Below are positions 2,721 through 57,647 of a stretch of DNA of 64,000 nt, piece by piece. Every line of letters begins with the position of its first letter. The first letter of the stretch is position 1. A program made the position numbers and the translations under genes. This DNA comes from Eurosta solidaginis (taxonomy: Eukaryota > Arthropoda > Insecta > Diptera > Tephritidae). Below the pieces are notes generated by a model that worked only from the letters and a program-made list of their open reading frames with translations, ran no database searches and was not told the origin of the DNA. The stretch spans positions 52,667,346 to 52,731,345 of the forward strand of contig NC_090324.1 in the NCBI RefSeq assembly GCF_040869045.1. Direction: 5' to 3'.

Positions 2721-3222
2721 TGTTTAGACAGGATGCCTAACTTCTCCGCATCTGATTGCGATCCCCCCAATGCAACTCTGCAAATCGATACTCGATACTC
2801 GACTTAATTTATAACCACCCACACCATCACTGCCACATGCATGTACATGCATGTACATGCACGTGTATATGTGCTTTTTGTCAGCACTCATGCATATGCA
2901 TGTCGGGGTTGATGTGTGGGTGCCTTTCCCCTCCAGAATGGAGGATTTTGCGGGTCAACGGTTCTCGCTTGCTATACAACCGCTCTCTTGGATTTCAATA
3001 GCCGTACAAAATGCATCTGCCGCCAGCGATCTCTGCCGTTTTTCAACAATACGTTCAGGTAATATTGTAACCAACCAATTTATATAGTTATCCAATAAAC
3101 CACATATATTATAACGAGAAATTTCGTCTATTTGCTTATTTTCTATTCCATACACATATTCCCACTGAGATCGACCCCGGTGCGCCCACCTACCTCTCGA
3201 GCAGACGCACCCCGGCCGAACA
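2721..3222 (+). repeat. BEL-1 5' LTR
   Basis: The LTR begins TGTTTAGACAGGATGCC and ends GGCCGAACA. It contains an alternating TGCATGTACATG tract and a polyadenylation-type AATAAA near 3094. The twin is at 14685. Related LTRs start at 47026 and lie in part at 57293 and 33975. Confidence 0.9.
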
Positions 3223-4058
3223 TTTAGTCCATCTTCAACAGGAATTTGGAATGCAGTACTTATTACAGTCCAGAAATCACATAACAACCACAAAAATTAT
3301 CGGAAAAGTATTTTGCCCACCAACAAAAAGTCTATTAGTACATACCATCGTGCAAAAACACCGAAAAAGTTACAGCCAGCTGAAGCAACTGCAACATCGC
3401 AAGCCAACTTGCCACATCAACGCCACGCCAAACCAGCACATCACCAAAAAGTTCAAAGTAAGTGCACTATTTCTTGCCACATTTTTTTTGGTTAAAATAA
3501 TAAATAAAAAGTGCGAAAAATCGATTTGAAGTGCCATACGTGATTGTAGTTAACCGCGAAAAGTGTGAAAAAACTGTGTAGTGCTAAGAAGAAAATAAGT
3601 GCAAACGCGGATCATTAACGTTGTTAAGAGTCCTTGTGACTGGCCTGTCCCCCCACCAGCGGTAAGGCTCTCCGGACACAGCACAAGGAAGAGGTACACA
3701 TAACCTGACCCTCAAATAAAATTTCACGCCATTCGATTGTGGCAATTTTAAATTTTCTTTTTGCATCACGTTAATTTCACTAGTTTCCTAATAAATTTTT
3801 GTTACACAGTTTCCTCGTTTTTCGCACAATATTTATTGAAGTGGCGAGTGACCCCCCTTTACTTCGCACAATACACATTGGTGTTGATTCCCCCTGCTCC
3901 CTGTTTTAAGGCACAAATAATCTGCAAAGTCAGACAATAAGAAACAAACTAAGAGTAATAAATCAATTTTGCGTAATTTTAATAGTTGCTGGTTGGGTGA
4001 TTCGCTCAGGCTTTCAAAGTTTATATCCTTTGGTTAATTTGCTCTCCACCTTTCAACC
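3223..4058 (+). promoter_or_regulatory. BEL-1 leader with conserved GGTAAG block
   Basis: This is the untranslated leader between LTR and gag. I could not assign a primer-binding site confidently. At 3640-3700 a block (CCAGCGGTAAGGCTCTCC then GGACACAGCACAAGG) recurs in BEL-2 at 47975 and, diverged and inverted, in BEL-O at 15840-15910. It contains a good splice-donor word (GGTAAG at 3661). No confident ORF is present. Confidence 0.55.
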
Positions 4059-4880
4059 ATGAACATGGATTCTTACATTAGATTAGCCGATCGAATAATC
4101 GAATTCGAGGCCGATTTTAATGATATCAATGCGGATCTGCACACTGTACACACTCTTGCAATACAGCAAAAAGAGTTGCAAGCTAAGTGGGAAAAAGCAG
4201 AGAACGCCCTAGAAGAGTTGCTTGGTTCTGACACGCTCGACGCAAAGAAAGTTGCAGCGGTAAAGCATAGAGCGGCATATGCCGTATTCTTGCGATACAT
4301 GTCGAACATGGCTGAACTTCAAGACCTTGAAGCAGGAAAGAGATAGTCAGGTTCGACCTGAAGGAGAGCGTGCGCGTGAACACAGTATCCGCCTGCCAGC
4401 TTGCGATACTGAGGTATTCAGGGGCGACTACCTATCTTGGCCAACGTTTCGTTACCTGTTCACGGCCATCTATAAGAATAACAGTCGCTTAAGCCCGGTA
4501 GAAAAGTTGTTCCACCTTAACCAAAAAACTCAAGGTGAGGCAAAGGACATTGTCAAGAAATGTGCTTTGACAAATGAAGGCTTCGAAACAGCCTGGAAAA
4601 ACCTATGTGAGAGATACGAGAATAAACGGATTCTCATAAACTCACAACTACAAATTTTGTTTAATCTAAAAAAGATAGATAGCGAGTGCGGCAGCTCAAT
4701 CAAAACCTTATAGCGCGACATAAATAATTGTTTAGCATCCTTAAAAACACATCAGATTGACGTTTCAAATTGGAATGCGATTGTTACTTATTTATGTTCG
4801 AAAAAATTACCTGAAAATACGTTGGCTCTATGGGAGCAGAGCATTGACCACAAAAAAAATCCAAGTGGAAAGATATAGAT
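4059..4880 (+). pseudogene. BEL-1 gag, N-terminal half, frameshifted
   Basis: The frame starts MNMDSYIRLADRIIEFEADF, an amphipathic helical N-terminus shared with BEL-2. A frameshift near 4345 moves to the frame carrying RLPACDTEVFRGDYLSWPTF, the DUF1759-type BEL/Pao gag core, with QKTQGEAKDIVKK after it. An in-frame TAG at about 4711 interrupts SIKTL|RDINNCLASL; the same position in BEL-2 reads through. A second shift occurs near 4830. Gag normally forms the particle and binds element RNA; this copy cannot do so intact. Confidence 0.85.
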
Positions 4881-4916
4881 AAATTCTTATCAATTCGTTC
4901 TCAGACACTTGAAACC

Positions 4917-6833
4917 GTGTCTGGTTTTACAGGGAATGCCACGTCTAAAGTGCAAAAGTCAAACGCGTCGCGCCAATCGACGGAAACCCCTACAAAAGGA
5001 CTTGGTGCTTTTCAAACAAAAGTATCCAAGCAACCAACAAAATCAATGTGTAAAATGTGCAAATCTACGGAGCACAGATTACGCAACTGTTCACGTTTTT
5101 GCGATTTAACCCTGGTAGAAAGGATGAAATTCGTTAAATCCACAAATGGCTGCCTGAACTGTTTATCCTCAGGACACACAGTGACGAGGTGCACCAGTTC
5201 GTACAACTGTTCCAAATGCCACTCTCGTCACCACACGCTCCTGCATGCGGACACACTTCAGCAACCGGCGGTGAGCAACCCTTTCAAAGATGCGGATAAT
5301 ACCCCATCAACTTCGGCACAGGCACGGAAAAGACAGGAATCGGGACAACCACCTTCCTCAACGAATCAGAATGTCAAATCCTGCCATGCCAATTCCAGCA
5401 CAGGCTTGCTATTAGGAACTGCTCGCGTACACATCCACCATAATGGTACCGACTTCTCCGCGCGGGCACTAATTGATTCAGGCTCTGAATGTTCTTTTAT
5501 TACTGAGAGACTAAAACGTAGAATCAAATTACCAGCGAGGAAAATACATTCAGGCATCACAAATGCGGTGTCAGCGCAGGTAAAAGAGGCATCCAAAATC
5601 GCATTACGTTCACCAGTGGATGCCTGCTTCAGCCTGACTACACCCGTTCTCGTCCTAGCTAAATTCACTGGGAATCTTCCATCCTGCCATATCAACGCAA
5701 TGACTATGCAGGCATTCCCAGACTTGGTTTTGGCAAACAAGAGGTTCTACGTTAAAGAAGACGTAGACCTCATACTTGGCGGAGACATATATCCCCAAAT
5801 TATAATGAACGGTATAAAAAAGAATGTACTAAACACACTCTGGTGTGTTCGGTTGGATACTAACCGGTCGAATAGAAGCACCGAATCCAAAGAAGAGCAT
5901 CATGTCTTCCTACAACGAAGTTGCGTAAATGCTTTCTGGGAGGTAGAAAATCTACCCAAAAATAAAATATTAAATGAAGAGGAAAGGTACTGCGAACAAT
6001 TATTTAACGAAACAACGAAACGAAATGAAGATGGAAGATACACCGTATCATTACCATTCAGGCAGTATTACCCTAATAATATTAATTTAGGACCGTCACT
6101 GAAACGCGCATGCTCTCAATTCTTCCGGAATGAGGGGCGGCTACTAAGAAACCCAGATTTAGGTAAAGAATATGTTCGAGTGTTGTCAGAATATGATACG
6201 CTCGGACATATGAGGAAATTAAAAAAGAATATCCCATCCGCCGATTCGGATCTTTACTTCCTGTCCCACCGTGCCGTTATTAAAGCAGAAAGTACCACTA
6301 CAAAGGTACGGGTAGTATTTAATGCCTCGAGCCCTACGGCCAACGGTAATGGTTTAAGCGATATTCTCCTGCCAGGCCCAGTTCTACAAGCCGATTTACC
6401 CATCCTTATCTTACGATGGAGACTATATCGCTTCGTATTCAATAGCGACATCGAAAAGATGTATCGGCATATTTGGGTGAAAGAAAATCACAACAAATTT
6501 CAAGGTATTGTACACCACACTTCCCCGAATGACCCTATTGGTCTTTACGAATTAAAGACGGTTACCTTCGGAGTGAATTGTGCTCCATATCTCGCGACAA
6601 GAACGCTCCTACAACTAGCTGACGGCGTAGTAAATTCACACCCTACAGCGGCTAGCATACTAAGAGAGCGTATGTACGTAGATGATCTTTTATCTGGAGG
6701 ACACACAATGGCGTCAACCATCAAAGCAAGAAACGAGATTCGCGAAGCTTTACACTCAGCTGGCTTCCCATTACGCAAGTGGGACATTCCCAAAATGGAT
6801 TTGCGAGGATTTCTTAGCGTTCGAAGAAGCTAG
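4917..6833 (+). CDS. BEL-1 gag C-terminus, protease and reverse transcriptase (long open segment)
   Basis: This is a 638-codon open stretch. Residues 45-105 hold the Cys/His cluster of BEL nucleocapsid (CKMCKSTEHRLRNC, CLNCLSSGH, CSKCHSRHH). Around residue 187 is the aspartic-protease active site LIDSGSECSFI. RT follows from about residue 390 (VRVVFNASSP, then FNSDIEKMYRHI) with the catalytic box MYVDDLLSGG near residue 585 (DNA about 6672). The frame ends in RKWDIPK-type sequence and shifts, so RT is not joined to its RNase H. The ATG used is simply the first in frame; the real polyprotein starts at the gag ATG near 4059. Confidence 0.85.
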   Translation: MSGFTGNATSKVQKSNASRQSTETPTKGLGAFQTKVSKQPTKSMCKMCKSTEHRLRNCSRFCDLTLVERMKFVKSTNGCLNCLSSGHTVTRCTSSYNCSKCHSRHHTLLHADTLQQPAVSNPFKDADNTPSTSAQARKRQESGQPPSSTNQNVKSCHANSSTGLLLGTARVHIHHNGTDFSARALIDSGSECSFITERLKRRIKLPARKIHSGITNAVSAQVKEASKIALRSPVDACFSLTTPVLVLAKFTGNLPSCHINAMTMQAFPDLVLANKRFYVKEDVDLILGGDIYPQIIMNGIKKNVLNTLWCVRLDTNRSNRSTESKEEHHVFLQRSCVNAFWEVENLPKNKILNEEERYCEQLFNETTKRNEDGRYTVSLPFRQYYPNNINLGPSLKRACSQFFRNEGRLLRNPDLGKEYVRVLSEYDTLGHMRKLKKNIPSADSDLYFLSHRAVIKAESTTTKVRVVFNASSPTANGNGLSDILLPGPVLQADLPILILRWRLYRFVFNSDIEKMYRHIWVKENHNKFQGIVHHTSPNDPIGLYELKTVTFGVNCAPYLATRTLLQLADGVVNSHPTAASILRERMYVDDLLSGGHTMASTIKARNEIREALHSAGFPLRKWDIPKMDLRGFLSVRRS

Positions 6834-7661
6834 TTCGGTAAAAGCCCGGGAATACGATGGAACGCTCACTCAGACGTATTTTATTTCAAAGCAGGAACCC
6901 TAGAAAATGGCGAAGACAACACCAAACGAGCAGTACTATTCGCTATAGCCAAACTTTTCGACCCTTTAGGCTGGCTTTCGCTAATGGTCATTGTGGCAAA
7001 AAGACTCATGCAGAGTATTTGGTTAGAAGGCATCGCTTGGGACGACCCAGTATCGACCAGTACGCTGGAAAAATGGAAAACTTTCACCAACCAATACCAT
7101 GAGATCGATGAAATAAGGATACCTAGCTGGGTCAACTTTTCTCCAGGAACCGACATCGAGATCCATGGATTTTGTGACAAATCCTAGAAGGTTTACGCAG
7201 CAATCGTCTACATGAGCGTGAAAACGGATAATGACATCTGGACAAACTTGCTGCTAGCAAAAACCCGACTAGCCCCAGTGAAAACCCTGTCTCTTCCACG
7301 ATTGGAACTTTGCGGAGCCGTGCTGTTAGCGGAAATCGCCGAACCAATTTTCAGGAACCTTAAATTGGGACCAGTGAGAGTTCACCTGTGGACGGATTCA
7401 ACGATCGTCCTCGCATGGATAAGGAAACCGCCTTGTTCCTGGTCCACTTTCGTCGCACATCGGATCACCAAGATCATCGACATGGTCGGAAATAAGAACC
7501 GGTTGCACGTAAATTCAGAATCGAACCCAGCAGATTTAGGTAGCAGAGGATTACCTGCGTCTGAGTTGGTCAACAGTTCGTTGTGGTGGCAGGACTTTCT
7601 TGGCTGCAAGAAGACACTTCCCAAAGGCCAGCACAAGAAAGTGACTACATCACCTCCGTAG
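6834..7661 (+). pseudogene. BEL-1 RT connection and RNase H region, broken
   Basis: Pieces in changing frames give FDPLGWLSLMVIVAKRLMQ (BEL RT thumb/connection), then the RNase H region IEIHGFCDKS with an in-frame TAG near 7185, where BEL-2 reads GFCDASEKAYAAAVYM. After it come LPRLELCGAVLLAEI and VHLWTDSTIVLAWI, which carry the RNase H acidic residues. The order matches other BEL/Pao elements. Confidence 0.8.
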
Positions 7662-9052
7662 AGGAAAAGAGGGCGAAGACCTGCGCAACAACAAAAGTAA
7701 ATACTACCGATGTTCTCCAACGCTTTTCAGACCTACCTAGGGCTTTACGGGTGCTCTCATACGTTATAAGGTTCTACCGAAGAACTCACCCCGAAACAAA
7801 AAATTCATTCCATGTCATGCCGCACCTAATCTCCCCTGACTAATTCAAGGCCACTACACGGCTTTTAATTAAAATCTATCAGAAACAACATTATAGTTCC
7901 GAATATAATGATCTAAAGGCCAGAAAACCAATTGCAGGGAAAAGTGCAATACTCCCACTTAATCCCTACCTAGACCAACATGGCATCATTCGGGTAGGAG
8001 GGTGACTCGGGGCGAAAGAGGGGTTAGCTTTTAATGAACGCCACCCATTCCTCCTCCCATACAACTGCGGGTTATCCCGTCTGACAGTCCTAATGTTTCA
8101 TCAACAAAGTCTGCATGGGGAAACCCAACTCATGTTTCGTCTGATACGCACCCAATATTGGATACCTAACATCAAAACCATGTTTTGGGCAACAATTCAC
8201 AATTGCAAAGTTTGCACTATACACTGAAAGCGTGCGCAGACCCAACTTATGGGTATTCTCCCTCGCGAACGCACGACATTCAGCCGTGCATTCACGAATA
8301 CTGGAGTGGTCTTCGCCGGACCCTTCGACATTAAAAGTTATCGGGGCAGAGGGTGTCGACTATCCAAAGGCTATGTTTGCCTGTTCGTGTATTTTTCCAC
8401 ACGAGCAATTCATCTGGAGGCCAGCACACCATCATTTCTAGCGGTATTTGCCCGTTTCATATCTAGGCGCGGATGCCCGAAAAATATGTATGTACTCCGA
8501 CAATGGTACGAAAAACCCAAAACGACAAAAGCCATTTCAAAAAGATAGCCTCACCACACAAATTCATCTTCGAGGAATTCCATACCCTCTTGTGCCGCAT
8601 CGAGGCATGCCTGAACTCGCGGCCGCTCAGCGCGGCATCCAATGACCCAACGGACCTAGAGCCACTTACCCCAGGTCATTTCCTCACTGGCAGCCATCTA
8701 CTGGCTCAGCCAGAGCCGGATGATAGTGAGAGCCCTGCCTCGATGATCAATCGGTGGCAGAAACACAAAGCCCTCCATCACACTTTCTGCCAGCGATGGA
8801 AAACCGAATATATCACCGAGATCCAGAAACGATAAAAGTGGAAACATCCACAATCTAATCTAAAACCCGTAGACCTAGTTGTTATCAAAGAGGACAACCT
8901 CCAACCCAACGAGTGGAGAATGGGGAGAATCGTCAACACACACCCAGGCTCTGATAACCGTGTGCGTGTTGTTGACGTTCATGCAACCAAGAGACAAATA
9001 ACTAGACCAATTACGAAATTGGTACTCCTTCCGTCCCACGACAAGGAGGATT
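7662..9052 (+). pseudogene. BEL-1 integrase, broken
   Basis: The N-terminal zinc-binding part is seen as CKVCTIH near 8210, with a stop. The core follows in the frame near 8249 (FTNTGVVFAGPFDIKSYRG). BEL-2 reads GVDFARPFDIK here, so the first catalytic Asp is Val in BEL-1. The second Asp motif SDNGT (near 8500) is in a different frame, and the third acidic motif is lost in a deletion. The C-terminal part (NSRPLSAASNDPTDLEPLTP, then IKEDNLQPNEWRMGRI) runs to about 9050. No functional enzyme is possible. Confidence 0.8.
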
Positions 9053-9900
9053 AAATATATGGCCAAATTCCGCCTTACAAAACCCCAAAAACCAAAATTC
9101 TATTTCCCCCGACTACCTAAAATCAGAAGCCCATTGTTGGTGATAGCATGGAAAGCATATTAAGGAATCCGCGTCTTCGTGTCTCTCTATCCCTAAGCCT
9201 GCGTTTCTCCCGAGCCATATATTATAATCAACCCCGCGGTCTCGTGATGGTGCGAGTCTACCGGAGGAGAATCCTAAAACGTACTACGCGATGGCAATGG
9301 GGAAAGGGAGCGCGGGACATAAAGACGCGTTCAACCACGCGCCGTGATGCCCCGCTATCCCTAAGCTTGTGTCTCTCCCGAGGCTCTAATTATAATCAAC
9401 CCCCCGGTCTCATGATGGTGCGAGTCTACCGGAGGGCGACCCTACATCTTCTTTTTTTTGTTCACTACCCCCGGTCTCGTGTCGAGTCTACCGAAGGGAA
9501 TCCTAAACCTGACTACTGGTGGGCAATGGGGAAATGGAGCGAGATGCACCAGGACGCGGGAGAGCTTACCAAAAGCTCGCAAACAAAAAGCATTTTTTCT
9601 ATTTTTCTTTAACAATATTAACCGGGGGCCCCTAAACAGAAAATCCCACACTTCACTCGCTCACCCAGAGCGAGGACAACAGACAATCCCAACTCACTCG
9701 TTATCCCATAACGAGGACACCAGAAAAGCCTACCGCAGAAGGGCGAACCGATCTGCTGCAGAATCTAAGGGCCTTCAGCCTTTTTATATTTTCAAACCAC
9801 CAAATCAACCCAAATTCCCTCGCTCCCCCGAGAGAACCACCAGAACCCTAATGCCACAGAACGTAAACGTCCTCGGCCCATAGAATTTAGTTTCCAAAAA
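9053..9900 (+). repeat. BEL-1 post-pol non-coding region with ~190-bp tandem repeat
   Basis: From about 9165 to 9590, a unit holding CTATCCCTAAGC, TCTCCCGAG, TATAATCAACCCC and GTGCGAGTCTACCGGAG recurs about two and a half times. BEL-2 lacks the array. From 9610 both elements share CACTCGCTCACCC, GCGAGGACA and CTCACTCGTTAT blocks (compare 51560-51700), themselves repeated two to three times. Confidence 0.65.
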
Positions 9901-9959
9901 GCTGATAAGTACTGAACTGTGTAATCGCTTAGAACATTTTTTGCCTTTATTATGAATTT

Positions 9960-10285
9960 ACTAACTATGCCATGATCTATAAGAGTGGATGGGCATAAGT
10001 AATTTTATGAAAAGTACAGACACCTATACCATCCGAAACCTAATTTAACATTCATCACTCCACGTCAAAATTCGCCTAGTCGATCGATTCGCGTAAAAAT
10101 GTCGTTAAAACCAATGGAGATACCATAACGAAATGTACTCATTGAGTACGTTAAGTTATTCACTCCGTATGCTCGGAACCTACGTCTCTATTTAAGAATG
10201 TGTGGAATCGTTTTATATTTGAAATATTTTGGACCTCACGAGGTAGTATCAGGTTAACGGGTTCCAAATATTCTAAATTAAAGTT
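9960..10285. other. Segment shared by BEL-1 and BEL-2 left of the cargo slot
   Basis: This aligns with 51800-52017 by shared words such as GGAGATACCATAACGAAATG, ACTCATTGAG and TCCGTATG-TCGGAAC. No clear coding pattern is visible. It marks the left boundary of the region that differs between the two elements. Confidence 0.6.
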
Positions 10286-10474
10286 TTATTCGCAACACTT
10301 CAATGGATATTTAAACGGGAATGAGCCTTCCGAAATATCAGAATAAAAGGGTAAATACTCCCTGTGTAGCAGGCCCGCACAAAAGCTCAACTCTTCTGCC
10401 AAAGTCAGTAGTGACTCAGTAGCACCGTCCGTCGTCAGAAATATAGCCGACGTGCCAAGAATTTCTGGAGCCAT
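10286..10474 (-). CDS. Short antisense ORF conserved in both BEL elements
   Basis: This is a 62-codon minus-strand ORF. Its second half has a counterpart in BEL-2 on the same strand (52018-52140). Both read EE-two variable residues-FCA-x-LL-two-EY-x-PFYS-[DE]-I-x-E and a later PFK. Most differences are conservative amino-acid changes, which points to selection on an antisense protein rather than on DNA. It may be a last exon of an antisense transcript. I do not recognise a family. It stops 25 bp before the end of the CMTR2 copy. Confidence 0.45.
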   Translation of the reverse strand: MAPEILGTSAIFLTTDGATESLLTLAEELSFCAGLLHREYLPFYSDISEGSFPFKYPLKCCE

Positions 10475-10499
10475 GTATCACAGTACCTACACGTAAAGA

Positions 10500-12589
10500 C
10501 TAAGGTGATATCAATATCTGTTTGTATGTACATAAATACTCAAAAGACATAGATTTACTTAACTTAAAATTATTCATAAGCAGTTGATTATTATAATTAT
10601 GAAGTGCTTTTGCAAATTCGTTACGATGCAAATTTTCAATAGGAATGGCGTATAACACATTTGGATCATCGCCGAGCAAAGTTTGTAACCTTTTCAATGT
10701 ATCCATTTGCTCTGGTGTATACTTAGAACTCTTGGTGTGCAGCTTAATTTGGAAATGAGGTTCACCACACAGCGTTAAACGCTCGAAAATGTATGTGGAC
10801 AAATAACGTGATATAGATACTGAAAGGTGTGCTAAAAATGCAGTGTTAGTAAAAACTAGTTGACTCGGTGGCTTTTCGCAAATAGCATCGAAAAGTGTTA
10901 AAAATAATTCTTGTTGATGGCGGGAAGAGCTTGGAACGTGGTTATCGTTTAGTGAAATTTCCTTCCCACCCACAACACATATATATTTGATAATGGATAT
11001 GGGATCACACCCAAAGATATCTTTCAATTTCTGATGCATTTGCATTATATAAGGATGAGCAAACATGCTGCTATGTAATTCTGCAAATGGATCGCCACGA
11101 TAGATACGTAGTACATCAAGAGTATCCGTTGCAATTTTGGCTGACACTTCTTCATACACAAAATCATGCGTATTATCTAATGATTTTTCTATAAAAATTT
11201 TATGCACAATGTAATTCAAATATGCGTTGTTCCAGAGAAGTAATCTTTGCCCTTTCACGCTCGGAGTATGAGCCTCGGCAGAAAGGCGTAGATTTATAGA
11301 GTTCATCAGTTTTGGGGTAGCCATATAAAATCTTATCTTCTTCTGGAATGTTGCAGACCTTATAACGTTTGTAGAATTCATTTGCTATAGCAGTACGTAA
11401 TTGTTGTTTATATGTAATTTGATGTTGTGTAGGTTTAATCTCATATGCCTGAATATTTGATTCCATAGATTGAATTTGTAAATTCATAAAGAGACGCGCA
11501 CATGCCTCATGCTGCAGCAGAAAATCCGTTGGTAAGGAAGATTTGGGAAATAGTGGTAGTATATTAGCACATCCTACATTTTTCAGCGTAAATTGTAAAG
11601 TCTCGCTCTAGTGAGGTGTTTGCTTACGATAACCAATACATATGACATACACCTCTGAATTGCCACGCTTCGAAGTAGCAGCCTTATAGACATACACTGC
11701 ATCAAAGGCGCAATTAAGCAAGAAGAGTTTACAAACATTTGTCGATTCAAAAAGCGTAAACATTTTCACTACAAAGCAGCCACCTTCCGCCAATATAATT
11801 AAAGCAGCTGTGATATCGGCAAAATGTAGCGTTGCCACAACTTCCTCTTGACAATCTGGGGTATCAGCGCAGTCTATAGAACCATCCGCAGTAATTAGGT
11901 TAACATCGTTGCCTAAACGTTCTTTGCATTTCGCCTGCATTTGCTCAATATGTCCACGATCAATAATATTGCCAGTAAAATCATCATGCATTAGCCAATT
12001 ATTAAAAGTGTGAAACATAAAGCGATCATTTGTAATCATGCCGCCAGTAGGATTGCCTTCATAATACGGATTGAACGCAGTGGAAAGCCAACGCCACTGA
12101 ACCTCTTGCCGCTTATACGTTGAATACAAAAAATGATTTAAAGCCACAATAAAAGCTCCCGGCAATTCGTATAAATGCATTGACCCTTTACAAGCGGAAA
12201 GGCATGCAGGCATTCAAAGAATTTACACCAAGCTACAGTAACAAATTCAGCTTTGGCTTCATTTTTAAGTCGCCATGGAATTTCATGTGTGGGGTCTTGT
12301 CGTCCCGTATGTTGGCTCCATTCTTAAAGTGCATAGTCATTCAATTTACACTTGATATCATTCAATTTGATTTTCAGCCCCTGCAGTTATTCAAACTGAT
12401 AAAATTCACCAAGCAAGTCTCTCGGTGGTGGTAATGTCCAACTGTTCTCATCTTCTGATAGTGAAATTTTTTTTCGAATACGCGATTTATTTCCTGTTGC
12501 TATTTAGTAATATGGGAATCCACACCGGGACTTGCAGCAGTTTGGTACAAAGGCCTACGCGGCACCAAACGTTCCATTGAGTAATCCAT
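10500..12589 (-). pseudogene. CMTR2: CMTR2 (Drosophila adrift) full-length pseudogene inside BEL-1
   Basis: The minus strand reads from an ATG at 12589 (MDYSMERLVPRRPLYQ) to a stop at 10500, about 2.1 kb, close to the ~700-770 codons of metazoan cap-specific mRNA 2'-O-methyltransferase 2. Recognisable parts, in order: N-terminal QQEINRVFEKKF and WTLPPPRDL; AWCKFFECLHAFPLVK; the SAM-binding entry LYELPGAFIVALNHFL (normally CEAPGAF); VNLITADGSIDC with following QEE; GGCFVVKMFTLFE; RGNSEVYVICIGY; then the long degenerate C-terminal methyltransferase-like domain. CMTR2 methylates the second transcribed nucleotide of capped mRNA. Stops at about 12500, 12387, 12324 and 11608 and shifts near 12465, 12185 and 11275 kill it. 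No intron is evident, suggesting an mRNA-derived or naturally intronless source. Confidence 0.85.
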
Positions 12590-13354
12590 AACTGAGAGTT
12601 GGTGATTTGGTTCGATGTTTAAATTATAAGATTATTTAGTTAAATCTATTTTTTCTAAACAATTATATTGCTTCGAAAATCCGCTACGAACAATTAGGAA
12701 AAAGTTACGAAGTTATGTTTGGGAAACAAAAGTATTACGCTAGTTATTTTGTTGCACGACGGCGGCGACGCAATTATGTTTAATAGTTATCTGAAATGAA
12801 ACAAAGAATAAGAAATTAGAATATTCATAAAATTATAAAAAAGGAACGATACGGGCATACTTATACTTACCCATCATGCGTTTTTCTTCATAATGAAAAT
12901 TCATTCAAAATGTCTGTATACTCATTTCTATGAATGAATGACATTTTTGAATGAACGAAACAAGGTTTCCACTCGTCTGACTTTGCCCTTTTTGTATCTT
13001 AAGCGGTGAACACATTGTAGGCGTTACCATGGGACCATATTTCGGATCCGTGAGATCCGACAGCACGACAAGTCATACGACAAGTCATACGCGAGCTAGG
13101 TAGATGCACAACGCTCCCTACCAACAGCTATGGTTCGGACACAAAAAAAAAAAAAAAACAAACAACCAAAGGAGAAAAGAGGGAGGAAGGACAAAATAAA
13201 AGACACAAAAAAAAGCTTTGTCCATTCACCGTCCAAGGAAAAATATATTTTACAAAAGAGAAACGCACATTTTTACATTTTTAATTACAATTTATTTATT
13301 AAAAAAAATATATATATTTACACACTGAAAAAGCAGAGACCGACGTAATCCCGC
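12590..13354. other. Gap between CMTR2 copy and zinc-finger ORF
   Basis: AT-rich sequence with a short direct repeat (GACAAGTCATACG twice, 13068-13091) and an A-rich run near 13143. I see no ORF worth calling. It would hold the promoter side of the antisense CMTR2 copy. Confidence 0.4.
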
Positions 13355-13657
13355 TTAATGCGAGCTATGCTTTCGCTGGCGATGCAACCCCAGCGAGAAA
13401 GCCGAGGGATATCGCTTCCCGCAGCTGCACTTATAGGGTGCGAAACCCAGGTGGAGATTGAGGTGGGCCTTCAATGTGGTAAAGCAGCTGAGCGTGTGCC
13501 CAAACACTCGACACACAAATTCCTGGCCGCCCGCGGAGTCTGTGCGCACCCAAAGAACCCCCTCATAACCCCGATAAAAACGAGTGTACATCGAGTGTCC
13601 CTCGTCATAATACCGCACCGTCAATCTTATGCGATTGTAGTTCCGCGGCATATTCAA
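13355..13657 (-). CDS. Antisense C2H2 zinc-finger ORF of BEL-1
   Basis: This is a 100-codon minus-strand ORF. Its C-terminus holds two zinc-finger-like units. The first (FVCRVFGHTLSCF, then LKAHLNLH) has lost its second Cys. The second (YKCSCGKRYPSAF, then LGLHRQRKH) keeps Cys and His pairs with one residue missing between the cysteines. The frame stays open upstream of the ATG to a splice-acceptor-like TTTTCGCTTCAG at about 13698. BEL-2 has a homologue at 55889-56276. Position and strand are conserved in both elements. The function is unknown; DNA or RNA binding is an inference from the fingers. Confidence 0.65.
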   Translation of the reverse strand: MNMPRNYNRIRLTVRYYDEGHSMYTRFYRGYEGVLWVRTDSAGGQEFVCRVFGHTLSCFTTLKAHLNLHLGFAPYKCSCGKRYPSAFSLGLHRQRKHSSH

Positions 13658-14189
13658 GAAAGTAATGCGCAGATTGGGACGAAGTTCGAACGATGCCCTG
13701 AAGCGAAAAGGAAAGAAAGTGGTATCATTATATTATGGAAGATGATCCCATAACCAAAAAAAAAGGCTTCCAAATTGGCAGCACCGCACAACTGTCTCAC
13801 TCCAATGAGTTGAAGAGTTATCAGCTGACAGCTCTACAAATTGCCACACTCGATAGTATAGGCTATTCCCGCCAAGGTTCTGTTGAAATCAACAAACACC
13901 CCACAATTTGAGTTTTTCACACAACATGGGCCAAATCAACACAAAGAATGTTCCACGGCAGCGAATAAAGGCCTCTTTACATTCATCGCACCAAATTAAA
14001 TGCATAACTTCGTCGGTCTCTACGCTCCGCTTAAACTCGCTTTATTCATCTATTTTAACATACTTTTTGTAATAAAACACCTCCGTTTCACCCAACCAAC
14101 CTCACGGTCACTCGCTCTGGCACTTCAAAAGATGCCACACCTACTCCAACAAAAAAGGCAGTCGCCCCGAGAGCGACACGACACATTAG

Positions 14190-14684: not shown

Positions 14685-15186
14685 TGTTTAGGCAGGATTC
14701 CTAACTTTTCCGAATCTGATTGCGATCCCCCCAATGCAACTCTGCAAATCGGTACTCGATACTCGACTTAATTTATAACCACCCACACCATCACCGCCAC
14801 ATGCATGTGCATATATGGACATGCACGTGTATGTGTGCTTTTTGTCAGCACTCATGCATATGCATGTCGGGGTTGATGTGTGGGTGCCTTTCCCCTCCAG
14901 AATGGAGGATTTTGCGGGTCAACGGTTGTCGCTTGCTATAAAACCGCTCTCTTGGATTTCAACAGCCGAACAACACGCATCTGCCGCCAGCGATCTCTGC
15001 CGTTTTTCAACAATACTTTCAGGTAATATTGTAACCAACCAATTTATATAGTTATCCAATAAACCACATATATTATAACGAGAAATCTCGTATATTTGCT
15101 TATTTTCTATTCCATACACATATTCCCACTAAGATCGACCCCGATGCACCCACCTACCTCTCGAGCAGACGTACCCCGGCCGAACA
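14685..15186 (+). repeat. BEL-1 3' LTR
   Basis: Same length (502 bp) as the left LTR; the differences seen are substitutions. It begins TGTTTAGGCAGGATTCC and ends GGCCGAACA, followed by TAAGC, which matches TAAAC before the left LTR at four of five positions. Confidence 0.9.
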
Positions 15187-16637
15187 TAAGCCGATAAGTT
15201 ATGGCTAAAGTGGAAAAAAGGACTGTATTGAGGCTTGTATGCTAAGTGGGATAAGTACAATTTCGTGGTGGCAACGGCGCGCACCCACGTAAATGTTAAG
15301 GAATGGCTAATGCAGATTTGCTACTGAATTGTCTAAGCCAATAGGTAATGGCTAGTGCAAAAATGGTGTCAGTGAGAAAAAAAAAATAAAACTATATGTA
15401 CGCTTGTTATGGACTTTTTGGTAATTTAACCAAGGACTGTGAACTTTTGTATCACAAAATTAGATCAGTCAAAACTGATTTGTATATTGCCGCAAGTGAG
15501 AATAATAATTCTTCAATTTTTTAAATATTTGTGCAAGGAATAAGGCTATTGGCCACCCAAACAACAACAACAATATGTGTGTATGAAACTAAGTGCACTT
15601 TGTGCTATAGCAACAAACTAAATTGCGATCGTATTGCCCGTGTAAATAAGCGTGTTTTTTTTTTGTGGAAAAAATCTTTAGTTAACTTGACTTCTGCTCG
15701 TTAATAAAATTGCAGATTTTGCTTCAATACGCTTAACAAATTAAAATTTAATAATGTGAAAAATCTGCAAAAGTGAAAGTTGAAAATTGGGGAAAAGACG
15801 GTGTTTGAGGTTATGTTAACCTTTAGCGCAGTGCTGTGCTACCTTGAGCTGTGTCCGGACAATCTTACCGCGGGTGGAGGATTGTACCAGATAGTCACAA
15901 GGCGTGATACACAAACTTTAAATAACTGCGTTGAGCGCCCCCTTTTTTTCAACTAAATATGAATTTTCCACTTAACAAAAAATCACTTGCACTGTTTAAT
16001 ATAAAGAATCACGTTATATTTTATAATTTTATTTTGAAATTTTATTAAGAGTGAAATTAAAGAAACCCTACCTAGCACGGAATATTTTCAACAACGTACC
16101 TTTATTAATTCGTTGATCCGGAGTAATCGAATGTGATTTAAATTTTGTTGTTGGATGTTTCCAAAAGGTACCACCAAAAGTGTATCAGTTGTTGTATATT
16201 GGCTGTTGTTGTTGTTTTGAATATAAAATCGCTGGTATCACCAAGAAAGTTGTATCACCATTGACAATTGCTGATATTTGATGTTGAAATTATTGGTTTT
16301 TCCTGTGTATTCTCACGAGTTTGGTATGCTTCCTTGCTTTAATGCGTGAACGTGGGATAACGTGTACTTTCGCTGGCTGCTGGTTTCAAAGAGGACGATA
16401 CTCTTTGCTACATGAGCCGATGAACCCACGATACAGCTCCTTCGTTGGGTTTCCCGGCAACAAAGTTCCTGTACCGCGGGTTCACAGCGGTAAAAATCTA
16501 AGATACATACGTACTACCACTCACACAAGCCTGTGTATAGTGATCACAAGAATATGTGGGTGGTAGTAACGAAGGAAAATAACCAAAGAAAGTTATGTTA
16601 CGAGGGGGGAGATATATTTAGGCCTGTGGCCTAAACA
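15187..16637 (-). mobile_element. BEL-O 5' LTR and leader (antisense, split by BEL-1)
   Basis: On the minus strand an LTR starts at 16637 with TGTTTAGGCCACAGGCC, like the BEL-1/BEL-2 LTR start but diverged. AATAAA occurs near 16110. The LTR end is not sharply visible, probably near 16000-16100. The leader follows with the GGTAAG...TCCGGACACAG block (15840-15910) and runs to BEL-1 at 15187; gag resumes beyond BEL-1 at 2524. Confidence 0.7.
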
Positions 16638-28617: not shown

Positions 28618-28812
28618 TGGCCTCCGCGATCAACTATACTCACGCTTGACTTGTAGTTGCAATAACAAGAACAACAAAAGAAAAAAAAAAGATGACAAGC
28701 AGAAAGTTAAAGCAGGCATTTTGTGAAAGAAATTTGAATTTTTATCTTTTCTCATACACGTAATCCGTTGTTGTTGTGGGCTCGTAAGCCCAGTTTTTTT
28801 GTTCTTTTTTAA
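28618..28812 (+). repeat. SAP-1 3' LTR, right piece (truncated)
   Basis: Resumes at CCGCGATCAACTATA (matching 24437) and continues to TTTTTTGTTCTTTTTT, then breaks off into satellite sequence. Confidence 0.8.
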
Positions 28813-28859
28813 CACGCTTTTATTAGCTTGTCCTGTATGTAGCGGAATCTTTGAGCTTA

Positions 28860-30126: not shown

Positions 30127-30337
30127 TGCAACCATAAACTAGGATAAAATTTTCGAATATCGCTTTGGCTATTGTTTTTGCTGGATATTGGTATTGCAAC
30201 CTATCGTATCTATTTGTACTGTGTCGAACGCTTTTGTGGGCGTTTCGGTTATAATCATAGGCTATTTCAAATTTTTAATTATTTTATTTTTATTACAATG
30301 AGCGCATTTTTTTATATATTTTTTTTGATAGCATTTT

Positions 30338-47025: not shown

Positions 47026-47514
47026 TGTTTAGGCAGGATGCCTAACTTTTCCGCATCTGAGTGCGAACCCCCTAATGCAACTCTGCAATTCGATACTCGA
47101 GACTCGATTTAATTTATATCCACACACACTATCACCGCCATATGCATGCGCGTGCACGTGTATGTGTGTTTTTCAGCACTTATGCACATGCATGTCGGCG
47201 TTATGTGTGGGTGAATTTCCCCTCCGAAAACGGAAGATTTTGCGGGCCAACGGTTGTCGCCTTCGATACAACCGGCCTCTTGGATTCTAACAGCCAACCT
47301 GCACGCACCTGCCGCCAGCGATCTCCGCCGTTTCATACAACAATTCACAAGGTAATATTGTTAACTTGTATAATATTTATCTTTACCCAATAAATCACAT
47401 ATATTATAACGAGAAATCTCGTCTTCTCTTATTTTATTCCAACCCGCCATATTCCCACTGAGATCGACCCCGGTGCGCCCACCGACTCAGGAGCAGACGC
47501 ATCCCGGCCGAACA
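47026..47514 (+). repeat. BEL-2 5' LTR
   Basis: 489 bp, TGTTTAGGCAGGATGCC...GGCCGAACA. Clearly homologous to the BEL-1 LTRs but more diverged from them than they are from each other, so a sister subfamily. Confidence 0.9.
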
Positions 47515-48459
47515 TTTGTTCCTATCTCACCAGGAATTTGGAAACAGCACCTTAACAATACAGTCCACAACATAATTAGGCCGAAAATTTATACGGAAAA
47601 GGATTTTCCCACCAACAGCTACACAAAACCAAAACTAAAAGGTTATATTTGATATCAAAACGTAAAAAAAGACTGAGCAAGCGACAGCCAGCTTAAGCCA
47701 CGGCAACACTACAAGTCATCTTGCCACATCATCACCACTATACAAATCACCAAAAAAGTCCAGAGTAAGTGCAATATTTCTTGCCACCCTTTTTCGATTA
47801 TAATAAAATAAATAAAAACCGTGTAAAAACATAATTCATATACGGTGTGCCACACGCGTAGTGATTTCTAATTAACCGCGAAAAGTGTAAAAAATTTAAT
47901 GCCGAAAAGAAAAAAGTGCAAACGCGAAAAATTGACGTTGTTTTTAGATTCCTTGTGACCATCTTGTCTGTCCCCCCATCAGCGGTAAGGCTCTCCGGAC
48001 ACAGCACAAGGAAGAGGTGCACATAACCTCACTTTCATATAAAATTTTACACCATTCGATTGCGGCAATTTTTCAATTATCCTTTGTGTCACTCTAATTT
48101 GCACTAATCTAATAAATTTTCGTTACACAGTCTCTTTTTGCACAAGATTTTATTAAATTTTTACACTTTTCGTCGAGTTTTATATCAGCGCGCGAACTTA
48201 TTTTATAATAAAAAAAAAATCGAAAGTGTATTGGCGAGTGGCCCCCACTTTTCTATTTCACACAATACATATTGGCGTTGCTGCCCCCTGCTCCCTGTTT
48301 TACGGCACAAAATAATCTGCAACGTCAGAAAAAATAAACAAATTAAAATAAATAACTAAAGTTTTGCGTAATTTAATAGTTGTTGGTTGGGTGATTCGCA
48401 CAGGTTTATTCAAAGTTATATTCCTCACTTAATTCGCTCACAACTTTTCACCCAGAAAT
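47515..48459 (+). promoter_or_regulatory. BEL-2 leader
   Basis: Shares blocks with 3223-4058, including CAGCGGTAAGGCTCTCC followed by GGACACAGCACAAGG at 47980-48010 and a GGTTGGGTGATTCGC stretch before gag. Confidence 0.55.
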
Positions 48460-51408: not shown

Positions 51409-52017
51409 CAATACCTCCGTTCTTCCATATCCCTACTTTCAAAAAACTCAAACCCAGCTCTCGTTCACCCGGAACTAGGCCAACCAACAACCCTAATGCA
51501 GATCGCCCATCTGCCACCAAACAATTATTTTTTTAATTTTTTCAAAAACAACCCAAATTCACTCGCTCACCCCAAGCGAGGACACAAGAAACAACCCCAA
51601 CTCACTCGTTATACCAGAACGAGGACACCAGAACCCTGACGCAGATCCACTGTCTGCCAGAGAACATAAATACACTCGGCCAAAAGCACGAGGCCAAGAG
51701 AATTTTACTTAATGAGTAGGGACAGCCATATTCTAAATATGGGTTAAAATCGTTTTACAGAACTTTGCTTAGTGGAGTCCATGATTCGGTCACAAGAGGG
51801 TTTATGAAAAGTAAGGAAACTATGGAATCGTGGACTTTCATTAACCTATGAACATGCGAAACCTAAACCAAATCAAAATTCATCGTTCAAAGTCAAAAAA
51901 CTCGCCTAGTACATGATGCACGTAGAAAAAAAATATCTCATTAGTAAATAATGGAGATACCATAACGAAATGCACTCATTGAGCATGTTAACTGATTCGT
52001 TCCGTATGTTCGGAACA
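51409..52017. other. BEL-2 post-pol segment shared with BEL-1
   Basis: CACTCGCTCACCCCAAGCGAG and CTCACTCGTTAT blocks as at 9650-9720, then the GGAGATACCATAACGAAATG block as at 10110. It lacks the ~190-bp repeat of BEL-1. Confidence 0.6.
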
Positions 52018-52140
52018 TTAATCTCTCGAACACTTCCATGAAGACTTAAACGGACAACAGCTTTCAAAAATTTCTGAATAAAAGGGTGAATACTCACTGT
52101 TTAGCAGGATCGCACAAAACTTGGACTCTTCTATCCAAGT
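52018..52140 (-). CDS. Antisense short ORF of BEL-2
   Basis: The minus frame from 52140 reads TWIEESKFCAILLNSEYSPF then YSEIFE and PFK, ending at a stop at 52018. It corresponds to 10286-10474 of BEL-1. There is no ATG within the matching part, so if expressed it would be a spliced exon. Confidence 0.4.
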   Translation of the reverse strand, partial: TWIEESKFCAILLNSEYSPFYSEIFESCCPFKSSWKCSRD

Positions 52141-53045
52141 TAAGGTAGGAATATAAAGTTCTAAGACAATAATCCATTTTCTCTATTTTTTGTTTTTTGT
52201 CAGTTCATTACAGCTGCTGAGTGGCGTATCACCCCATGTCGCCTGCCTGTTCAAAATCATGCTATCTCAAAATATTTGTCCAAAATTTCCCAATTCAGGA
52301 TTTGTCACAGGGCCGCCCTATATTAGAGTTAGATTGCAGAACGCTTCATCCCAGAATGCTTTTCATTAACTCCCTTTTATGACAAAATGCATTGAACTTA
52401 TGCTCATATAGGGAGTTTTGGTAACAAATTTTGAGATGGTGCAGCATTCTTCAAACATTTCTGAAAGAATGACCAACCAACATGACTTTATCAATTCACG
52501 AAATATTTAGTAGAAAATGAATTATTTCCCCAAAAACTTTTGGCATTTACAAATTTATTATCACTACTAATATACTACCAAAGATACTTGTTCACTCCAA
52601 TTTCACTGAAGGGGATTGAATTATTCCCCGTTTTCCTTACTTCGTAAAAGCAACCCGTCCAGATTTTTCAATTTGGGAGTGTCAAAGATCTGTCTTCATT
52701 GACGAACAAACCTCTAGTAATTGAATCAAATAAATAACATTTCGGAACTTATGTCAAATAGCTTAAGTGTAAAATTATTCAATCAAACTCACCCACTCAC
52801 TGAGACAGGTTAAAGCTGCATCCATCCCTGTTGAAAATGGCCCTTTCTTGCCTTTCGTTCAATTCCATTTGATGGAACTGAATTAAATTTTCTCGGTACT
52901 CATTTGCCTTTTCATTTTTTGTGCTTCTTGTCCAATTTGCACTGAAATCCTCGTTGGTAATCGTTGTGGCTAAAAATAGAACTTTTTGCGTAAATGCGTA
53001 ATATGTTATATTGAAAATGCAATCTGCATTATGTTGATTTTTGTT
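52141..53045. other. Left part of the BEL-2 cargo region
   Basis: No similarity to BEL-1 begins here. AT-rich, no ORF with a motif. It could be 3' flank or intron sequence of the captured Sin3A copy. Confidence 0.35.
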
Positions 53046-54455
53046 TTTTTTTTACTGATCGCAGTAGCAACGTCCTGCTTTTGTATACCAGTCTGACGTC
53101 TTACTTGCTGAATTAAAATTCGCAGCATCCTCAAGTATGGTTTTATCTTTATATAGTAACACGATATGTGGACCAGTTACCGGTTCACCATTCTCATCGT
53201 CTTGATCGTGACGCTCATCATACAACGTTTCATTTTCGTTGAACAGATTTTTGGAACGTAACGCCTTCATATCGTTCGACCTGACATTGATTGCTTGATG
53301 ATCGAGTGACTTGAAATAATACTTATTTTTTCACTCCACACTTCATTGAAGAATTTTGAGCCTCCCGCCATTCCTCTTCTTTAACTTTCAAATGCTTTAG
53401 AACAATTGGCACAACAACGGACGGATTAATTTTTTTAGCCTTGAATTATCTCTCCAGCTTCGTCACCATATATATGATATATGGCTCGTTGGTGTAAAGT
53501 ATGTAAGGGGCCACCCAAGTAATCGTCTAAATCATATCGGCTCACATCTTCTGGCGACTTCGTAGCGCTTTACGAACTTTATCAAAGAGCACAGCATCGA
53601 AGAGCGTACATTTACGCGATGCCTCCGAAAAGGATAGATCCTGGCATATAGGCTTATGCTTTTATCAGGAGGTGGTCCACCCCCACTACCACTCTCGCCA
53701 TCATCGATTGCTGGACAACGTGCGGCTTCAATGGTGATGTGATCTACCAAGCACTTGCTGGGTATAATTCATACTAATACGATCCATTCCGACACTATTC
53801 ATTGTGGTATTGCCACTGCCACCTAAAGCTCCTTTACCTGAACCATACCTGGGCCGTCTCTTCGGGGATTGACCAGGAACGCTGCTAATATTGGAGCTGG
53901 GTTCCTGTTCATATTCCAACCCACTACCCGTTTGATGATTACTGCGACGTAGGTCTTTTTCGTAGTTTCGTACACCCCCTGCCGCATTTGATTTATCATC
54001 GACAGCACCAGAAACCGCATTTTCATGTAATACCTTTAAACACAATGCACTACTGCTAGGATGAAGCGTAACACGATGATGGAAATCTTTATCGTAGACT
54101 TAGCTCTCCACCACGTCTACTACCTGCACTTGCATGGATCACATGATCTTGGGATTGTTGTGTGTTATTGTACGGTTTGAGTCTAACGCTCGTATTCATG
54201 GTAGATAGGTTACCTAATGCAGCGGCGGGTGTACTACCACCGTGGAGACTGTGGAGTTAACGGAGAGCCAGTCGCTGATGGTATTGTAATATGATGACTA
54301 CTGGCACCGCCAGCACTACCGATAGGACCACCACTAGTCGTACCATTCTTTGGACCCACACCCATAGTTCCAGCAGCGTCTGATTTTTGGTAATCATTGT
54401 GCGACTTTGTCATATAAGGCGCGCTTTGATGATTAGCGGGATCTGAACACTCATT
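53046..54455 (-). pseudogene. Sin3A: Sin3A partial pseudogene inside BEL-2
   Basis: Minus-strand pieces in protein order: a Gly/Ser/Thr-rich linker (ASSHHITIPSATGSPLTPQS near 54300; SVPGQSPKRRPRYG near 53870); QDLSFSEASRKCTLFDAVLF and DKVRKALRS near 53600; directly after, YDLDDYLGGPLHTLHQRAIY and [12 protein letters not shown] near 53480; [19 protein letters not shown] near 53370; [24 protein letters not shown] sequence near 53270; [34 protein letters not shown] and [11 protein letters not shown] near 53060. Sin3A is the scaffold of the SIN3/HDAC corepressor. Several hundred codons normally separate DKVRKALRS from DYLGG, so a deletion joins them. At least four shifts or stops are visible. Confidence 0.85.
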
Positions 54456-54984: not shown

Positions 54985-55346
54985 CGGCCACCGTCGTGTG
55001 ATGGTAGCGGTCTCCGCCTGCCACACCATATGCCCTGGGTTCACACCCAGGGCAAAGCAACATCAAAATTTTAGAAATAAGGTTTTTCAATTACAAGAAA
55101 ATTTTTCTTAACGGGGTCGCCCCTCGGCAGTGTTTGGTAAGCGCTCCGGGTGTATTTCTGCCATGAAAAGCTCTCTGTGAAAACTCATCTGCCTTGCAGA
55201 TGCCGTTCGGAGTCGGCATAAAACATGTAGGTCCCGTCCGGCCAATTTAAGGGAAAAGTCAAGAGTAGCACGACGCAAATTGGAAGAGAAGCTCGGCCTT
55301 AGATCTCTTCGGAGGTTATCGCGCCGTACATTTATTTTTTCTTTAT
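54985..55346 (+). repeat. tRNA-derived SINE, copy 3 (complete)
   Basis: Head with CGTCGTGTGATGGTAGCGG and GGGTTCACACCCAGGGC (pol III box region), body of about 280 bp, and a T-rich tail. Flanked by a perfect 13-bp duplication TTAATTAATAATT (54969-54981, 55347-55359), the mark of LINE-driven insertion. Confidence 0.9.
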
Positions 55347-55888: not shown

Positions 55889-56276
55889 CTAATGCATCCG
55901 CTTTCGGTGCAGGGACAATGCAGCCGACGATGCATACCTCTTCCGACAGACCCCGCACCGATAGGTGGAAAAGCCCAGATGACTGTTTAAATGGGCAACG
56001 AGACCTGCAAAGCAACTTAGTGCCCGCCGTCCCACGCGGCACTTATACGGCCATGCAACGGCGGATCCTGGGGTGTCCGAAGAATCCACAGCTAACCCTC
56101 ACACCCACGATAAAAGCGCGCTTACCAAGCGTGGCCCTCTCACGTACCCGCACAACAGTGGGCTTCCACTGTGCCCGCAGCACTTCCGGATCAATGGCCA
56201 GCAGCACCCTTTTCACCTCGTGCACCAACGGCTCATCCGGCACATGGCATTCGTATGAACCCTTCCGTCGCTCCAT
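55889..56276 (-). pseudogene. Antisense C2H2 zinc-finger ORF of BEL-2, frameshifted
   Basis: From an ATG at 56276 (MERRKGSYECHVPDEPLVHE) the minus frame runs through RVLLAIDPEVLRAQWKPTVV and GKRAFIVGVRVS. It shifts near 56085 into the frame ending in fingers: YKCRVGRRALSCFAGLVAHL (second Cys lost, as in BEL-1) and YRCGVCRKRYASS, then LSLHRKRMH, a perfect C-x2-C-x12-H-x4-H finger. The homology to 13355-13657 covers about 100 residues. The BEL-1 copy lacks the N-terminal part or is spliced to it. Confidence 0.65.
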
Positions 56277-57177: not shown

Positions 57178-57292
57178 AGGTGGCATGCTGAGCAAGTCGG
57201 GAAGGATTCCCGGCCACCCGCGAAGCTGGCGAACTCCTTATCTAGATTAAGTTTAGTGTGTAAGTCTTATATTCATTTTTTTCTCGTTTCAG
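57178..57292 (+). other. LTR-like module before partial LTR
   Basis: AGGTGGCATGCTGAGCAAG and CGGGAAGGATTCCCGG as in the solo LTR (33985), then TTTCTCGTTTCAG, which joins directly to the LTR body. It replaces the first ~130 bp of a normal LTR. Confidence 0.55.
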
Positions 57293-57647
57293 TATGTGTG
57301 CTTTTTGTCAGCACTCATGCATATGCATGTCGGGGTTGATGCGTGGGTGCCTTTCCCCACCAAAACGGAGGATTTTGCGGGTCAACGGTTGTAGCTTGCT
57401 ATACAACCGGCCTCTTGGATTTCAACTGCCTACAGCACGCATCTGCCGCCAACGATCTCCGCCGCTTCATACAACTGTTCAAAAGGTAATCTTGTTAAAT
57501 TGTATAACATTATCTTCATCCAATAAAACATCCAATTATAACGAGAAATCTCGTCTTCTCTTATTTATTTCCAACACGAATATTCCGCTTGAGATCGACC
57601 CCGGTGCGCCGACCTACCTCCAGGAGCACACGCACCCCGGCCGAACA
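57293..57647 (+). repeat. BEL-2 3' LTR, 5'-truncated or chimeric
   Basis: Begins at TATGTGTGCTTTTTGTCAG (internal to other LTRs) and ends GGCCGAACA. It matches BEL-1 and BEL-2 LTR bodies. Confidence 0.8.

Follow-up and report, generated by a model that had tools for sequence, protein, structure and literature searches.

Long terminal repeat (LTR)-mediated retroposition was reportedly described in metazoans by Tan et al. in 2016, in the form of individual chimeric retrocopies. The arrangement analysed here, in the tephritid fly Eurosta solidaginis, is a site downstream of pol (the slot) that is occupied in LTR retrotransposons by copies of different host genes (the cargo); it was noticed in a stretch of 64,000 nucleotides (NCBI RefSeq assembly GCF_040869045.1, contig NC_090324.1, forward-strand positions 52,667,346 to 52,731,345; hereafter the window), where the elements BEL-1 and BEL-2, both of which are presumed, in line with the label of an earlier sequence-only reading, to be BEL/Pao elements, carry CMTR2 and Sin3A, respectively. 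In LTR-mediated retroposition, as outlined in the accessible part of a review (PMC5408686), an LTR element likewise acquires spliced host messenger RNA (mRNA) through template switches at sites of microhomology. Its hallmarks were found here as intronless copies (five cargoes), microhomology (in the HMG-CoA synthase (HMGS) cargo of genomic place L012 and, at about 2 nucleotides, in CMTR2) and cargo inside LTRs. The difference is that individual chimeric retrocopies are described there, whereas the present elements have a slot in common across several BEL lineages, hold many genes, occur in copies with the same cargo and have an antisense intron-like edge. Bs1 of maize is also an LTR element with copies of several host genes, but is a plant element with one known gene set (accessible parts of PMC5408686 and PMC13317346). 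Pxyfem of Plutella xylostella (PMC9674220, accessible part) is a spliced retrocopy, multicopy and antisense, that is associated with LTR elements and arranged in tandem W-linked arrays with demonstrated small RNAs, whereas the present slot is mobile and swappable. The Anakin BEL-Pao elements of mosquitoes (PMC7642597) hold a captured extra gene which is a viral glycoprotein and not a host mRNA, and the word 'antisense' is missing from the accessible main text of that paper; in rotifer LTR elements with ORF3 (PMC5408684, accessible part) the extra open reading frames (ORFs) are varied, and some were judged by the authors to be exchanges between retroelements more likely than host captures.

Literature searches, carried out at the level of listings and with subscription journals mostly beyond reach, found no BEL/Pao lineage with a host-gene slot, and neither 'antisense' nor 'host gene' occurs in the accessible main text of two BEL/Pao papers (PMC3118150, PMC4580426). 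Each ingredient is already known; the combination in BEL/Pao appears new as far as the literature search reached. We know of no comparable antisense slot in Bs1. Host-gene capture by LTR elements has usually been told as single events, whereas a single genome here offers a natural series of many genes in several lineages, with copies only a few percent from their parental genes, in which switch points and strand bias, as well as the rate at which mRNAs are captured and what becomes of them, are directly measurable.

The slot was delineated by alignment of the two elements in the window. Their 5' parts and pol align in blocks of 70-94% identity and BEL-1 10022-10405 matches BEL-2 51844-52140 at 74-78%, after which, at the sensitivity used, alignment restarts only at 14038 in BEL-1 and 56703 in BEL-2. 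The sequence-only reading had placed CMTR2 in the differing interval of BEL-1 and Sin3A in that of BEL-2, both antisense to the element, and this was confirmed by alignment, Pfam, PDB and the parental loci. The CMTR2 cargo was identified by its FtsJ domain (Pfam, E=1.3e-14), with CMTR1 among the PDB matches, and a search for homologous proteins with its C-terminal part returned one unnamed relative; its homology spans 10560..12711 on the minus strand, which is narrower than the 10405..13340 initially given for the differing interval. The Sin3A cargo of BEL-2 (53062..54445, minus strand) was identified by a PDB match to Sin3b (E=1.5e-18) and has lost about 606 bp of coding sequence at 53558/53559. 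Next to CMTR2 in BEL-1, positions 10460..10559 (minus strand) hold remnants of earlier captures, namely a bit of an S6K-like kinase, recognised by eye, and a stretch in common with the DHX15-bearing place L019, both of which are larger in other copies.

Further copies were collected from the 1.9-Gb genome searched, in which contigs are labelled C2, C3 and C6 and genomic places are given L-numbers. A search with the left border yielded 2293 first-look candidates, of which the best 40 places were scored (43 rows, three being second pieces); 26 of these, the window included, were read downstream and 5 more at their ends only. Five of the 26 are standalone copies of a repeat, TE-X, and the other 21 are BEL copies, as judged from the right flank, an LTR or pol seen alongside, or from close similarity to such copies. 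A named host gene was found in 17 of the 21 (in one via sub-threshold matches), a serine-rich ORF in 3 and a fragment only in 1. CMTR2 is present in BEL-1, its duplicate L009, L010, L017 and L018, and a CMTR2 remnant together with HMGS in L012-L015 (Pfam E=8.2e-95 in L012, DNA matches in the rest). TXNL1 with its PITH domain occupies L024 and L028, where a C-terminal-looking coding piece of another gene lies ahead of it. Uridine kinase (UCKL1) and an SLC36-type transporter are found in L057-L059, with ERAL1 also in L057 and L058, ABCB6 in L020, and DHX15 (PDB E=1.1e-17) with a Psq-domain protein in L019. A CUB/LDLa-like protein lies in sense in L016, with matches under the Pfam cut-offs. The serine-rich ORF of L021, L056 and L060 is also in sense and has no Pfam match; a leucine-rich-repeat reading of L021 was dropped for the same lack of a match. 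L011 retains only an early fragment, followed by a nested element.

A second search used the right-border query 12790-13730, which is free of TE-X and cargo, and the best 40 of 550 first-look candidates were scored. Twelve new places, defined by a match reaching the start of the right flank, were read leftward over about 1.4 kb, a span that lies short of pol and the LTRs. All 12 contain host-gene-like pieces, with confident names, based on Pfam, PDB or DNA identity, in 11: DPF (L067), myotubularin (L068, with L077 88% alike), citrate synthase in sense with an antisense BTB protein (L069, with L078 93% alike), uridine kinase from the same parent as the other uridine-kinase cargo (L070), a KIF2A-type kinesin (L071), an RNA polymerase beta-type subunit in sense (L072, with L074 97% alike), TRAP-gamma (L075) and an alpha/beta hydrolase with a zf-AD piece, the latter below its cut-off (L076); L073 has a weakly supported M16-type piece. 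Slot pieces were presumptively named S6K, nardilysin, kraken/SERHL and Klp10A; Pfam backs the KIF2A-like and alpha/beta hydrolase assignments and gives a weak M16 match for nardilysin, and an NCBIfam scan gave weak matches only.

No empty slot was seen in the 21 left-border BEL copies and the 12 right-border places read, so that empty slots as the rule, the outcome which the sequence-only reading had named as speaking against a slot, did not emerge. Its proposal of a slot downstream of pol filled by different host genes, mostly antisense, holds for several BEL lineages and for more genes than it had reported. Cargo lies within LTR bounds in BEL-1 and BEL-2 (both LTRs), and the copies L009, L012, L014, L015, L017, L018 and L024 extend to the 3' LTR. 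The pol ahead of the cargo in L056 and L058 is mostly 65-71% identical to that of BEL-1; distinct lineages therefore have the same layout. Other occupants of the slot in some copies are TE-X, a LINE-like (long interspersed nuclear element) stretch, a dispersed repeat and nested LTR elements.

For orientation, each named gene was counted once and S6K, which occurs in both orientations, was excluded. Eighteen of 21 named genes are antisense (CMTR2, HMGS, Sin3A, TXNL1, UCKL1, SLC36, ERAL1, ABCB6, DHX15, Psq, myotubularin, BTB, KIF2A, M16, DPF, TRAP-gamma, hydrolase and zf-AD; p=0.0007), and under a stricter count, with two weak antisense names taken out and the serine-rich ORF added as sense, the figure is 16 of 20 (p=0.006); neither p value is a strict probability, as neighbouring cargoes of one element may be non-independent.

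The tested cargo was copied from spliced mRNA. Compared with parental-type loci, five cargoes are intronless: CMTR2, Sin3A and TXNL1, and, via exon pieces, UCKL1 and SLC36 (intron edges of TXNL1, UCKL1, SLC36 and HMGS were set by eye or from match ends). The parental CMTR2 gene, L044, has an intact 687-amino-acid frame, which the cargo matches in two pieces at 95% and 90%, and a 65-nucleotide GT..AG intron that is missing from the BEL-1 cargo, a spliced complementary DNA (cDNA) copy. The parental-type Sin3A locus L047 has three introns, all of them missing from the copies L045, L046 and L048; in BEL-2 two are spliced out and the third falls in the deleted stretch. The parental TXNL1 locus L061 has four coding-region introns and the cargo none, and the UCKL1 and SLC36 cargoes are contiguous where the matches to their likely parents are split into 6 and 4 pieces, with one UCKL1 gap measuring 19.7 kb by match positions only. 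HMGS is uninformative on splicing, its parental gene being intronless over the stretch compared. Because of the intron polarity, the copied RNA was the sense host mRNA. The suggestion that antisense orientation spares captured introns from splicing could not be upheld: the cargo compared with its parents has no introns, and some cargo is in sense.

The ends of the cargo were examined at two genes. CMTR2 starts about 124 nucleotides upstream of the ATG and ends a few codons short of the stop, with the microhomology judged by eye at its left edge; no poly(A) or poly(T) was found at the edges of this cargo, the only one where it was looked for. The HMGS cargo of L012 is permuted, HMGS sequence being joined to a stretch that lies 4 kb downstream of the parental gene on the same strand (C3:265130000-265137600), and its two junctions show the microhomologies GTCA and AATAAAG, compared without a chance expectation. 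A circular-RNA origin of this permuted copy was considered and set aside, since one junction could be GT/AG and the other not, and template switching is simpler.

The sequence preceding the cargo was taken initially for BEL sequence and was found to belong to another repeat, TE-X, because standalone copies share upstream sequence and one end point. Homology between BEL-1 and BEL-2 does reach 10405/52140, nearly as first reported, but the repeat piece itself spans 9903..10459 in BEL-1 (plus strand, start approximate), as a truncated 3' part, and 51712..52728 in BEL-2 (plus strand, start approximate), where it is complete to the 3' end. The standalone copies L022, L023, L025, L026 and L027 all stop at ...AATTGAATCA(TG), which corresponds to 52728 in BEL-2 and beyond which their DNA is unrelated, and they have common upstream sequence that BEL-1 lacks. 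A 3' piece of TE-X is embedded downstream of BEL pol and the cargo comes after it. TE-X is a high-copy repeat, with copies at window 9903-10459, L022-L027 and L029-L043. L022, L025, L026 and L027 were discarded as slot copies, being standalone TE-X, and so was a Fermitin (kindlin) 717-amino-acid open frame near L023 as intact cargo, since it is flanking sequence of a standalone copy; this intronless frame (L023:3061-5211) adjoins TE-X and is a host gene or a retrogene.

At the right edge, sequence common to the elements picks up again at about 12791 and not at 13340 as initially proposed. The reported relatedness of the zinc-finger ORFs holds at the protein level (about 52-54% over short stretches). 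The sequence left of the acceptor, in BEL-1 a short leader at 12712..12790 (minus strand), varies between lineages. It adjoins a putative antisense intron of 80 nucleotides (12791..12870, minus strand; GTAAGT...TTTCATTTCAG), whose acceptor forms the slot's right edge, followed by the right flank (12871..13354, minus strand; putative antisense exon 1 and beyond) and the antisense zinc-finger-like ORF of 125 amino acids (13355..13732, minus strand), which has no Pfam match of its own; the broken counterpart in BEL-2 (55889..56139, minus strand) matches zf-C2H2_4 (E=1.9e-6). In 24 of 25 regions, read antisense, a pyrimidine-rich TTTCAG immediately precedes the start of the slot, a count that is non-independent (12 of the 25 were picked by right-border similarity, descent is shared and L009 duplicates BEL-1) and without a shuffled control. 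A donor-like site lies 74-81 nucleotides upstream of the acceptor in 11 of 12 copies (GTAAGT in 10, GTAAAT in L009). TGATGG precedes it in 10 of the 11 donor-bearing copies. From this layout we infer that antisense transcription takes place, with the cargo as last exon of the transcript. Between BEL-1 and L013 the zinc-finger ORF differs by 5, 8 and 17 changes at codon positions 1, 2 and 3, and it has a stop in L009, L014 and L015 and is broken in L010, L016 and L024; it may be under mild constraint at most.

Some cargo sits at several insertion sites and has been carried around the genome by the element. The flanks of L012, L014, L015, L017, L018 and L024, compared on the downstream side, differ, small or dispersed repeats aside. 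For TXNL1, 8 copies match contiguously over about 0.9-1.08 kb and are spread across 3 large contigs; five of them cover the query in full and the other three match from about base 174 onward. A BEL setting was observed for L024, L028 and a third copy (L064, L065). Eight long copies of the uridine-kinase cargo were found, of which 3 were read, and Sin3A cargo also occurs in a short derivative (L045) that has remnants of both LTRs and has lost most of gag-pol. Three tandem Sin3A cargo copies lie at C2:127470587-127509489 with a spacing of about 15-22 kb.

The CMTR2 and HMGS copies do not keep their proteins intact and look like decaying passengers, because of their codon-position pattern, stops and frameshifts. 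Differences from the parent at codon positions 1, 2 and 3 number 29, 34 and 45 in the CMTR2 cargo of BEL-1 and 20, 27 and 39 in that of L009, which have 5 and 3 stops, respectively, and frameshifting deletions in both. For HMGS they number 4, 8 and 12 in L012, 14, 19 and 22 in L013, 18, 24 and 17 in L014, and 18, 25 and 18 in L015, with frameshifting deletions and no stop in L012 and 2 stops in each of the others. The mild third-position excess in some cargo is expected if only the parent is under selection.

We consider it probable that the slot is filled in a clade of BEL elements by template switching onto packaged host mRNAs, with the cargo as an antisense last exon. A BEL/Pao clade would have a permissive slot between pol and the antisense zinc-finger ORF, and host mRNAs would enter the particles and be copied into the element as the reverse transcriptase switches template. 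As antisense cargo is made from sense mRNA, the jump would occur in plus-strand synthesis: the growing plus strand would pass to a host mRNA, be extended in the direction of the mRNA's 5' end and then return to the element. Retrotransposition of the resulting chimera could then spread the cargo, later captures would add to or replace earlier ones, and the acceptor-like sequence at the right edge would make the cargo the final exon of an antisense transcript. Should the antisense intron be used, the element would offer retrotransposons a way to express and disperse host genes. Only tentatively do we extend this to a standing cassette for capture and expression, in which an antisense promoter, a first exon, the 74-81-nucleotide intron and the acceptor would be kept while spliced host cDNAs are swapped by template switching; such a cassette would follow the logic of a gene cassette platform, but at the RNA level and in a eukaryote, with spliced antisense transcripts ending in a host-gene exon.

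Several observations weigh against template switching with an antisense last exon. Three named cargoes (CUB/LDLa, citrate synthase and the polymerase subunit) are in sense, and the antisense bias could be one of survival rather than of mechanism. The GTCA junction of HMGS also fits GT/AG, so that splicing or a back-splice is possible there. L047 itself appears to carry a frame break and so may not be the working Sin3A gene. L020 shows no acceptor where it was looked for, which may reflect the place examined, L024 is without a donor and that of L009 deviates. The orientation of the S6K-like fragment in L009 is the opposite of that in L019, and a DHX15 stretch has an intron-like edge, which hints at pre-mRNA or DNA as the source of some pieces. 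The same two observations, together with the mosaic of small pieces beside TE-X, would suit DNA-level capture, in which TE-X or gap repair took up parts of genes in the manner of Pack-type elements and Helitrons; this is nevertheless very improbable for the slot as a whole, in view of large cargoes without the introns of parental-type loci, even across the 19.7-kb UCKL1 gap, and of the several CMTR2, Sin3A and TXNL1 copies seen in BEL context. It is also improbable, if somewhat less so, that LINE-type processed pseudogenes inserted independently at a tolerated spot in BEL and were in part amplified later. Spliced cargo would be accounted for, as would the LINE-like reverse-transcriptase sequence noted by eye inside L019 and the A-run near its DHX15 piece; yet the edges of CMTR2 lack a tail, this cargo retains its upstream end but not its 3' end, opposite to the 5' truncation of LINE copies, and both the chimeric junctions with microhomology and the single right edge common to lineages point elsewhere. 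The CMTR2 ends and the HMGS microhomology are more readily explained by jumps from one RNA template to another than by LINE insertion.

What keeps cargo in the slot is a separate matter. Antisense sequence in the element RNA, or its small RNAs, might lower expression of the host gene and so favour retention, as with Pxyfem, whose antisense LTR-linked retrocopies act through small RNAs (PMC9674220, accessible part). Such silencing would agree with the strand bias under either count and with the antisense intron-like sequence, but the captured genes are unrelated and do not look selected, and CMTR2 and HMGS carry frameshifts and stops, though a silencer needs no frame; we regard it as unlikely. 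There is a somewhat better, still minor, chance that the region downstream of pol is neutral and tolerates host mRNA and transposons alike, in keeping with the TE-X, LINE-like, dispersed-repeat and nested LTR sequences in some slots and with the decay of cargo frames; host-like sequence in every slot read, the common right edge and the antisense bias do not sit easily with indiscriminate filling.

The remaining features of the window concern the elements themselves. The LTRs of BEL-1 (2721..3223 and 14685..15187, plus strand) are 95.2% identical to each other and begin TGTTTAG, with the TG start of LTR retrotransposons. Its gag-pol region (4038..9054, plus strand) has ORFs in several broken frames, is in part 87% identical to BEL-2 and contains an RVT_1 match (E=2.7e-6) slightly below the Pfam cut-off. 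BEL-2 has its 5' LTR at 47026..47515 and part of its 3' LTR at 57292..57647 (both plus strand). No clean target-site duplication was found for BEL-1 or BEL-2, both of which have broken frames, and loss is possible. L009 (C6:197473582-197480587) was dropped as a separate insertion, since its downstream flank equals the window at 94% over 1446 bp and it therefore duplicates the BEL-1 locus; it is still counted among the 21 BEL copies. A longer collinear duplication past the BEL-1 flank was not seen in 2.5 kb from C6:197.49 Mb, which matched just a 132-bp repeat. The Sin3A copy L048 (C6:197524100-197526950) lies about 50 kb from L009, as in the window. Within BEL-2, a dispersed repeat (54986..55345, strand unassigned) has an inverted copy at 27.7-28.1 kb and occurs again at about 1.5-1.75 kb, and window positions 28806-30158 hold a local tandem array of repeats of about 123 bp.

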